Source: Nocardioides iriomotensis (GTDB lineage Bacteria > Actinomycetota > Actinomycetes > Propionibacteriales > Nocardioidaceae). From it: a stretch of DNA of 64,000 bases. How positions within the stretch are numbered: position 1 is the first letter of the stretch; every line of letters starts with the position of its first letter. Below, piece by piece: positions 38,200 through 39,979 of the stretch. Location of the stretch: NCBI RefSeq assembly GCF_004168035.1, contig NZ_SDPU01000007.1:1-64000 (forward strand). Direction: 5' to 3'. Below the pieces are notes generated by a model. The model was not told the origin of the DNA. It saw only the letters and a program-made list of their open reading frames with translations, and searched no databases. A program made the translations under genes and the position numbers.

Positions 38200-39153
38200 A
38201 TGTGTTACGGATACGACGGCCACGCTGCCTTGCGCGAGTCGATGGAGAGGCGCGGCGCCAGCCGTCGCTCGTTCCTCAAGGGCGCAGCCGCCTCGCTGGC
38301 CGGCGCGGCCGCGGTCGGGGCCGGCGCGCTCCCCGCGTCGGCGGCGGTACACGCCGTACGACGGGTGCCGCCGGGCAAGATCAGCATCCAGCTGTACACC
38401 CTGCGCTCCATCATGAGCGGCGACGGGATCGAGGCGACGCTCGCGAAGCTGGAGGAGTACGGCTACCCACGCGTCGAGCTCGCCGGGCTCTACGGCCGGA
38501 CGGCGTCGTCGTTCCGCTCGACGCTGGACTCCTACGGCATCCGCGCCTCGTCGAGCCACGACGGGATCAGCGGGAGCACGGCCGCTCTGCACCAGAAGCT
38601 CCAGAACGCCGTCACGCTCGGCCAGAACTACGTCAACGTCCCGTACCTCAACTCCGCCGAGCTGTCGGCCTGGCAGGAGTGGGCCGACCAGATGAACGCC
38701 GAGGCCGCGGTCGCCAAGGGCTACGGCCTGCGCTACGGCTACCACAACCACGCCCACGAGTTCACGATCCGGCTCAGCAACGGCCAGACGCCGTGGGAGG
38801 TGTTCACCGAGCGGCTCGACCCGTCGCTGGTGCACCTCGAGGCGGACCTCTACTGGGTCGTCACCGGTGGTCTCAACAGCGGTGACGGCGTGGCCGACCC
38901 GGAGCAGTTCGCGATCGACACGATCAAGGCCGCGCCGCAGACCGTCCGGCAGTACCACGTGAAGGACAAGCAGTACGCACGACCGAACAGCGACGGCGAC
39001 CACGTCGACCTCGGCACCGGGTTCATCGAGTTCGACCGGATCTTCGCCGCGCACACCGTCGAGGAGTACATCGTCGAGAACGACTCTCCCGACGTCACCC
39101 CGCTGCAGACCGCGGAGGTCGGCTACAACTACCTCCGCACCCTGCGGTTCTAG
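38200..39153 (+). CDS. Tat-exported sugar isomerase/epimerase-like TIM barrel
   Basis: A 317-residue protein with a twin-arginine signal: SRRSFLKGAAASLAGAAAVGAGALPASA at about residues 21-48. The mature part is a xylose-isomerase-like TIM barrel: ISIQLYTLRSIM, LEEYGYPRVELAGLYG, YGIRASSSHDGI, LRYGYHNHAHEF, VHLEADLYWVVTGG, VRQYHVKDKQY and EYIVENDSP, giving possible metal ligands Glu, Asp/Glu, His and Glu. Export is odd for a phosphate-sugar enzyme, so it probably acts on free sugars or glycosides outside the cell. ATG 38200 has GGGAAAGGA upstream. Its TAG stop comes from the left end of the repeat element that follows. Confidence 0.87.
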   Translation: MCYGYDGHAALRESMERRGASRRSFLKGAAASLAGAAAVGAGALPASAAVHAVRRVPPGKISIQLYTLRSIMSGDGIEATLAKLEEYGYPRVELAGLYGRTASSFRSTLDSYGIRASSSHDGISGSTAALHQKLQNAVTLGQNYVNVPYLNSAELSAWQEWADQMNAEAAVAKGYGLRYGYHNHAHEFTIRLSNGQTPWEVFTERLDPSLVHLEADLYWVVTGGLNSGDGVADPEQFAIDTIKAAPQTVRQYHVKDKQYARPNSDGDHVDLGTGFIEFDRIFAAHTVEEYIVENDSPDVTPLQTAEVGYNYLRTLRF

Positions 39154-39317
39154 GGCGTGGCTCTCAATTCTGGCCGTCGCGAGCGTCGTCCGGTGCGTGC
39201 GATGGCAAGGCGCCGGAGCGAGGGCGGGCCGGCGGCCCGTCGAGTGACGGCAACGCCGCCAGCGTGCGTGTCCGGGCGGCGCGCAGCAGGCCAATGGAAT
39301 TGAGAGACACGCCCTAG
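39150..39317. mobile_element. 168-bp MITE-like element with 21-bp terminal inverted repeats
   Basis: The ends CTAGGGCGTG-N-CTCTCAATTC (39150-39170) and GAATTGAGAG-N-CACGCCCTAG (39297-39317) are inverted copies with one mismatch; pairing continues inward after a three-base offset (TGGCC with GGCCA). The interior is GC-rich without a transposase. The outer CTAG on each side could be a duplicated target site, which is the type used by IS5-group elements (inference). The element carries the TAG stop codons of both convergent neighbours and would form a long hairpin in RNA from either side. Confidence 0.7.
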
Positions 39318-39979
39318 GCTCCGATCAGCTCCAGCACCGCGGAGGTGGGCCGCACGTCGCCGAACGAGCGGTACACCACGTGGAGGCTGGCGTTGTGGTC
39401 CTGGTCGTCGACCGCCGCACAGGCGTCGGCGACCAGGACCACGCGGTAGCCCAGCGTGCTCGCGTCGCGCACGGTCGACTCGCAGCACACGTTCGTCACC
39501 GTGCCCGTCACGACCACCGTGTCGATCCCGCGCTCGGCCAGCAGCTCCGGCAGGGGCGAGCGTCCCGGGAAGAACGCGCTGGCTGCGGACTTCTCCACCA
39601 GCAGGTCCGTGTCCTCGCGCACCTCGAGCTCGTGCCAGAGCCGGTCGCGCAGCGGGCCGCTCCCGCCGGACGCGCTGTAGGCAGCCGCGACCTCCTCGCC
39701 GTAGAACTCCCGGTCGACCGCCGTACGACGGGAGGGGCCGGGCACCACCCAGGCCACCGTGCCGCCGGCGTCGCGCAGCGCCGTCGCGAGCGCGTTGACG
39801 CGCGGCACGAGGCCGAAGGCGTACTCGTTCTGCTCGACGAAGAACGGCACCACGTCGACCACGACGAGCGCCGTCCGGCGGGGGTCGAGCTGCTCGAACG
39901 CGTGCCGCCGTCCGCGGCGTGACTCGTGCCGGGCGTACTGCCGCTCGTCGATCCGCCAGTCGTGGGTGCGCCGCTGCAT
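39314..39979 (-). CDS. Isochorismatase-family cysteine hydrolase
   Basis: A 221-residue hydrolase of the isochorismatase/nicotinamidase fold. The catalytic triad is visible: Asp in ALVVVDVVPFF, Lys in LLVEKSAASAFFPG, and Cys in VTGTVTNVCCESTVRDA. A cis-peptide VVTGT segment precedes the cysteine. Substrate (isochorismate, a ureido compound or an amide) unknown. Its last codon and stop lie in the terminal repeat of the MITE-like element. A GDSL esterase gene lies upstream on the same strand's far side. Confidence 0.9.
   Translation of the reverse strand: MQRRTHDWRIDERQYARHESRRGRRHAFEQLDPRRTALVVVDVVPFFVEQNEYAFGLVPRVNALATALRDAGGTVAWVVPGPSRRTAVDREFYGEEVAAAYSASGGSGPLRDRLWHELEVREDTDLLVEKSAASAFFPGRSPLPELLAERGIDTVVVTGTVTNVCCESTVRDASTLGYRVVLVADACAAVDDQDHNASLHVVYRSFGDVRPTSAVLELIGA

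Follow-up and report, generated by a model that had tools for sequence, protein, structure and literature searches.

A 162-bp hairpin between two convergent genes of Nocardioides iriomotensis is very probably a non-autonomous transposon, a MITE, mobilised in trans by a transposase of the IS5 family and IS427 type. It would have inserted at a CTAG shared by the two genes, leaving both proteins unchanged, and would belong to a foldback superfamily with exchangeable ends. The element lies in a window, the whole stretch of 64,000 nucleotides analysed here, on contig C45 of a 4.71-Mb genome assembled in 47 contigs. The features of the locus are as follows.

38200-39153, + strand: gene of an exported xylose-isomerase-like TIM barrel (PF01261), from ORF and Pfam; its stop TAG consists of TA plus the element's first G.
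39150-39170, + strand: left terminal inverted repeat including CTAG, from an inverted-repeat search.
39151-39152, no strand: TA within CTAG 39150-39153, presumed left copy of the duplicated target; TA flanks both sides of other copies.
39153-39314, + strand: element proper, best taken as 162 bp (GGGCGTGG...ACACGCCC), from sequence, inverted ends, fold and copies; + is the better folding (sense) strand.
39170-39293, + strand: conserved hairpin core, matching covariance model R1 with 117 bits, the window being one of the 30 sequences behind the model.
39297-39317, - strand: right terminal inverted repeat including CTAG, from an inverted-repeat search.
39314-39979, - strand: isochorismatase-family gene (PF00857), from ORF and Pfam; its stop TAG consists of TA plus the element's terminal G, on this strand.
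39315-39316, no strand: TA within CTAG 39314-39317, presumed right copy of the duplicated target; TA flanks both sides of other copies.

The two arms of the element are 21 nt long, 95% complementary and separated by 126 nt. This agrees with a preliminary description of the locus, which had reported 21-bp inverted ends with one mismatch. CTAG is indeed outermost on both sides (39150-39153 and 39314-39317), as direct reading of the 168-nt stretch confirms. Every ORF of at least 80 aa that overlaps the element continues outside it, so the description was also right in seeing no coding capacity for a transposase. Its extent of 168 bp is correct as a description of the repeat, but the element itself is best delimited as the 162 bp at 39153-39314, flanked by two TA dinucleotides. 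On the + strand, all 168 nt fold into a single hairpin of -117.4 kcal/mol (z -8.45; none of 200 shuffles equally low), and the - strand likewise folds far beyond its shuffles (-95.6, z -6.44). Placing the boundaries by folding was abandoned, as the search ran too far into the GC-rich flanks. In the Rfam search of 39000-39500, the element itself had no match. The only two hits, sub-threshold microRNA matches, fall inside the isochorismatase gene, where an 18-nt inverted repeat with a 12-nt loop (39395-39442) is their source.

Chance does not account for the inverted-end hairpin, of which both near-identical and diverged copies are present elsewhere in the same genome and in relatives. BLAST with the element gave 19 matches at 17 places of its own genome, two copies being matched in two pieces each. 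Three matches end mid-hairpin at contig ends (C14, C30, C45) and three start mid-hairpin where a contig starts (C15, C31, C46), the pattern that assembly breaks at the palindrome would produce. One of these copies, at 64695-64800 of C45, about 700 bp past the window end, runs off the contig, and C46 starts with its apparent other half; the palindrome is probably behind the C45/C46 break. In practice, such palindromes coincide with contig breaks of the draft assembly. Among 58 genomes, 23 (own included) match at an E-value of 0.001 or better, several of them by short weak matches (E 1e-5 to 6e-4) that may be due to chance. The terminal end pattern is found in 11 of 100 genomes (own included) and its reversed control in none. 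The search of the genome and its relatives that the preliminary description had proposed thus returned a multi-copy element with ends matching IS5-family elements, and not the single copy without insertion-sequence ends that it had set against its own reading.

The core is 79% GC and spreads further. Model R1, built from 30 sequences and 123 positions long, matches at least 122 of 245 genomes of the family (own included, up to 14 candidates scored per genome) and at least 22 of 396 genomes of the phylum (own included, up to nine scored per genome). With 150 candidates scored in each of 14 selected genomes, each genome had 2 to 53 matches, 339 in total. R1 E-values are rough, since the window yields 60 matches up to E 10, the second best reaching 20 bits against 117 for the element; phylum-level matches at 35-40 bits are less certain, and so is the match of L235. 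An exact core motif scanned over named genomes gave 24 stretches, all from Nocardioides speluncae, the own genome being possibly outside that scan. The motif also occurs in one viral contig. Two Streptomyces plasmid records match the element over 61-67% of its length at about 76% identity, and phage records did not contain it. Our literature search of open-licence PMC papers found no description of this hairpin family.

Several variants of the hairpin were seen. Four copies of the own genome (L012, L013, L023, L024) and five of G068 (L077, L080, L082, L083, L085) bear in the upper stem an extra hairpin of 50-60 bp, like GGGGTCCC...GTGGGGTG. It sits in the left arm of some copies and in the right arm of others, a nested module common to two genera. 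L019, at about 2002-2067 of C13 in the own genome, is a miniature form, its roughly 66 bp consisting of the two ends with hardly any core between them. In G093, L087-L090 have CTAGGGCGTGTCTCTCAATCC-like ends and a different-looking core, and two of them still match the core model with about 65 bits. Related hairpins with a TCGCGAGCAGGTGC...GTGCCGCGCAGCACGC core (L043, L045, L072, L073 in G041 and G043) occur in another family of the order.

The affiliation with IS5 comes from elements of relatives. Five genomes (G018, G067, G101, G123, G149) carry autonomous elements, 955, 957, 979, 999 and 1078 bp long, in which one end is CTAGGGCGTGTC and the opposite end nearly the same; the 955-bp element is present three times in G018. 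In four of the five (L097, L111, L115, L124), the frames match PF13340 (DUF4096) and PF01609/PF13586 (DDE transposase), and the fifth (L095) matches PF13340. The DUF4096 and DDE frames of these four overlap in different reading frames, a layout like that of the IS427 group of the IS5 family, which an excerpt of PMC3281130 describes as having two overlapping ORFs and mostly 2-bp repeats. The similarity between our element and its autonomous partners covers about the first 12-15 bases, beyond which the sequences diverge. Because the CTAGGGCGTGTC-ended elements of relatives carry DUF4096/DDE frames, membership of the window element as a non-autonomous IS5-type element is well supported; this part of the preliminary description stands, the element being multi-copy with an end that matches relatives' IS5-family elements. 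As for a transposase gene bounded by the same ends, which had been proposed as a check, one was found in relatives and none in the own genome: all 14 end-pattern matches there are hairpin copies or contig-end halves. The own genome has four DUF4096 matches, and one such element (L096) has CTGGGTGTGTCC ends between TAA repeats. An IS630/Tc1 affiliation, suggested by the CTAG/TA target, was rejected on the IS5-type proteins of the partners.

The duplicated target appears to be TA, in most cases as part of CTAG, and not CTAG itself, because copies in GTAG, TTAG, TTAA and CTAA contexts (L053, L036, L069, L097) have only TA common to both flanks. Partner L097, in CTA...TAA, fits TA only, and the other four partner elements sit in CTAG. 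Hence the CTAG duplication anticipated from IS5 elements in the preliminary description is not supported, although this expectation was not baseless, as a mycobacterial IS5 element has been described with 4-base CTAG repeats (PMC9241763, in excerpt). At the window locus, TA lies in a palindromic CTAG, which makes a duplication indistinguishable from stem pairing. Among GGG-type copies, 16 of 29 are flanked by TA on both sides; identical flanks (17, against 14.8 after permutation) are not in significant excess because nearly all flanks are TA. GCC-type copies have identical 3-bp flanks in 14 of 29 cases, against 4.7 after permutation (0 of 2000 permutations), with TCA in eight, TGA in three and TAA in two (13 TNA) plus one GAA. 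In this flank test, the pattern mis-parsed a few right ends (L208, L211, L284). The TNA repeats are non-palindromic and are therefore real target duplications, which argue for staggered-cut (DDE) insertion. They also bear on single-strand transposition by an HUH/Y1 enzyme, as in REP/RAYT or IS200/IS605, a reading to which the one-strand fold and the replication-linked orientation described below would lend themselves. The lack of target duplication expected for REP/RAYT is contradicted by these 3-bp repeats, present as TNA in 13 of 29 GCC-type copies, and the ends are common to DDE elements. We consider such a mechanism very improbable.

At the window locus, both TAG stops lie inside the terminal repeats (39151-39153 for the TIM barrel and 39316-39314 for the isochorismatase), as first described. 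That the insertion had reset both C-termini, as was also claimed, is contradicted by the sequence: when the flanks are joined in silico at one CTAG, the TIM barrel still ends in LRTLRF* and the isochorismatase in LELIGA*, so neither C-terminus was reset. In six homologues of the isochorismatase (56-67% identity), the C-terminus lies 0 to 8 residues past the last residue of the window protein; judged by this comparison there was no reset, with room for a small shortening. In this view the two convergent genes would originally have had overlapping TAG stops within a single CTAG, and the TA of that CTAG would have been the target of the MITE. A second TA, followed by G at either element end, would then provide each gene with a separate TAG. 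The unchanged proteins are shown on the sequence; the insertion event itself is inferred. The comparison with syntenic loci that had been suggested was run on six homologous loci with about 1.5 kb of flank each; the TIM barrel was not beside the isochorismatase gene in them, and no empty site was found.

Stop codons are frequent at element ends generally. After removal of six of 88 rows for core length, flank length or duplication, 36 of 82 copies (44%) have a coding-like stop at an end and seven at both, while a random-position control gives 64 of 5730 per end. Background CTAG sites contain a stop on at least one strand in 26 of 77 cases (34%) and on both strands in three of 77. As background CTAG sites have stops nearly as often, most of the stops at element ends can be put down to the choice of target, and a special targeting of stop codons was rejected. 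Among the 82 copies, gene stops adjoin the right end in 29 and the left end in 14, a twofold difference that fits the replication bias described below. Insertion at a shared CTAG stop would offer a gene-dense genome a way to accept DNA between convergent genes with both proteins unaltered. In its position between convergent genes, so stable a hairpin could also act as a bidirectional terminator for the pair, as the preliminary description had proposed. However, we found no terminator-like site with a T-tract in 38900-39600, and 15 of 60 copies in three genomes lie between genes called convergent. This makes the shared terminator quite improbable, and its claim unsupported.

The copies of the element also share a fold. 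In alignment A1 (32 copies, made without structure), 46 consensus pairs were obtained, 40 of them with changes on both sides. Stem cells are paired in 88.5% of cases against 66.9% after shuffling, and 305 cells show double changes against 100. None of 500 shuffles is as high on any of five measures, and slid structures reach at most 47.4%; these figures come from related sequences, which may inflate the shuffle test, and from a structure drawn from the same alignment. The strand test outweighs the covariation count for these two reasons. Covariation can also come from template-switch repair of imperfect palindromes. The mapped length is 164-170 in 37 of 38 copies, a regularity partly built in, as mapping was extended by the query; L012, L023 and L024, which bear the extra inner hairpin, were mapped wrongly.

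In the strand test, for which 11 of 88 rows were dropped (length, N, duplicates), the sense strand folds better in all 77 copies, with a mean RNA MFE of -108.5 versus -83.5 kcal/mol. DNA parameters give the same result in 77 of 77 (-55.9 versus -46.2). For background genomic windows, the + strand is better in 31 of 60 and the mean is about -77. Hence the average folding of the complementary strand is little above that of ordinary DNA in these genomes, even though this strand of the window copy folds well beyond shuffles. The aligned stem contains 167 G-T against 22 A-C appositions, and A1 folded on the reverse strand gives -23.7 versus -56.7 kcal/mol. A crude finder detected GNA triloops in 34 of 124 apical loops and a GNRA tetraloop in one. 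GNA loops are unusually stable in DNA hairpins.

These data weigh on a simpler reading, in which the hairpin is a plain MITE, a deletion derivative of an IS5-type element with the palindrome as by-product, and in which template-switch repair explains the agreement of the arms, strand-biased mutation the strand asymmetry and insertion bias the orientation. Its ends, common to IS5-type elements, speak for it. On the other hand, core motifs recur in distant genomes, unpaired bases included, despite changing ends. The excess of G-T over A-C also speaks against it, though G-T was permitted in the fold from which the pairs were taken; the reverse-strand fold of the same alignment and the per-copy result, 77 of 77 without that choice of pairs, point the same way. 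Taken with the orientation data that follow, we regard the plain MITE as somewhat unlikely.

Orientation was counted in 12 genomes of one or two contigs, taking dnaA as the origin and assuming the terminus half a turn away, for the best-scoring 149 of the 339 R1 matches (G213, with one row, and G588 were left out). Of these 149 matches, 115 place the sense strand on the leading-strand template. The count is 90 of 116 without G197, which from its equal scores looks like a mirror-image near-duplicate of G224, and 77 of 100 when the terminus zone is also removed, again for best-scoring matches. Three of the 12 genomes have no clear bias (G014 2:3, G098 1:1, G178 5:3). In 60 copies of three genomes, orientation is 46 to 14. 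Where a gene side faces the fork head-on, the bias persists (31 of 44, with two non-independent sides per copy). Because it remains where the flanking gene opposes the fork, orientation follows replication and not transcription. Recent and old copies, split at 90% identity, show similar ratios (16:6 and 30:8), so that these ratios do not separate insertion bias from later loss. This independence of copy age suits the plain MITE, as does an excerpted review (PMC5371812), in which multiple IS families are reported to bind the sliding clamp and to be biased in orientation with respect to replication. The review also reports such biases in orientation for Tn7 and IS200/IS605.

The same counts bear on a role at the RNA level, where the sense RNA hairpin would work when transcribed, as an RNase III substrate or mRNA stabiliser, in the manner of ERIC and NEMIS. 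The sense RNA is very stable, with G-U pairs, and in the window the TIM-barrel mRNA corresponds to the sense strand. However, flanking genes are antiparallel to the sense strand at 72 gene sides and parallel at 46 (60 copies), orientation tracks the fork even at head-on genes (31 versus 13), apical loops are GNA triloops far more often than GNRA tetraloops, and Rfam has no match to the element. An RNA-level element is accordingly improbable. Strand asymmetry and replication orientation together suggest instead that the core of the MITE is kept for a single-stranded DNA fold.

The ends behave differently from the core. In A1, 24 copy pairs with 80-90% identical cores have ends that are on average 45% identical (minimum 21%), and 13 pairs with cores more than 90% identical have ends at 85%. 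Arms are complementary within a copy (70% Watson-Crick over aligned columns) much more than between copies (38%). Three genomes each contain several end types around recognisably one core. Of the end types, only CTAGGGCGTGTC has an autonomous counterpart that was demonstrated here. A search for GAGGTTCCGCCA-type ends used pattern GAGGTTCCGCCARTAGGTGG, allowing two mismatches, and gave 16 places in nine of 197 genomes. The reversed control gave at least 27 matches, more than GAGGTTCCGCCARTAGGTGG itself, and only the 10 of the 16 that form hairpin pairs, in five of 197 genomes, were therefore taken as real; no autonomous element with GAGGTTCCGCCA ends was seen in these 197 genomes, where the pattern search was at noise level.

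Overall, we propose an actinobacterial superfamily made of two modules. The first would be a conserved core with one strand folding better than the other; the second, the outer stems, would be the transposase-facing ends, varying between copies, complementary within a copy and associated with TA or TNA duplications. The core may be a foldback passenger, acting as folded single-stranded DNA that brings the two ends together, and changed ends would let it follow different IS5-type transposases, as the diversity of ends and the two types of duplication suggest. A wider and more tentative proposal, which we hold to be possible but less than even in likelihood, is that of a phylum-wide class of mobile DNA: a heritable single-strand foldback with one strand selected to fold, ends recruiting different IS5-type transposases (TA/TNA), and persistence that, as for attC, requires the leading-strand template to bear the folding strand. 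If true, a MITE could be a stable structural core switching transposase allegiance through its ends, and the persistence of non-autonomous elements beyond that of their helpers would become easier to understand. With 2 to 53 matches per genome in the 14 selected genomes, the family would then also be a dense natural data set on single-stranded DNA folding, replication direction and genome shape.

Compared with known systems, the element resembles IS5-family, IS427-type insertion sequences in its near-identical ends and its location at CTAG/TA, and differs from them as a 162-bp hairpin without ORFs and with a conserved core. The palindromic MITEs ERIC, Correia/NEMIS and RUP share with it a size of about 100-170 bp, a mostly intergenic location, a hairpin over most of the length and a TA target. 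They are linked to IS630, whereas here the ends are IS5-type and exchangeable and the fold is that of one strand. Like REP/REPIN with RAYT, it is a dispersed mobile hairpin without genes of its own, but it is longer and has target repeats and DDE-type ends. Actinomycete relatives of IS427 are described beside the mycobacterial IS5 element in the excerpted PMC9241763. MITEs are typically AT-rich according to an excerpt of a review (PMC10969869), unlike the GC-rich core found here. For the placement on the leading-strand template, the closest precedent may be the attC site of integrons: its recombinogenic strand, which is the folded one, stays on that template (PMC11023631, in excerpt), as does the better folding strand here; unlike attC sites, our element has target repeats and insertion-sequence ends.
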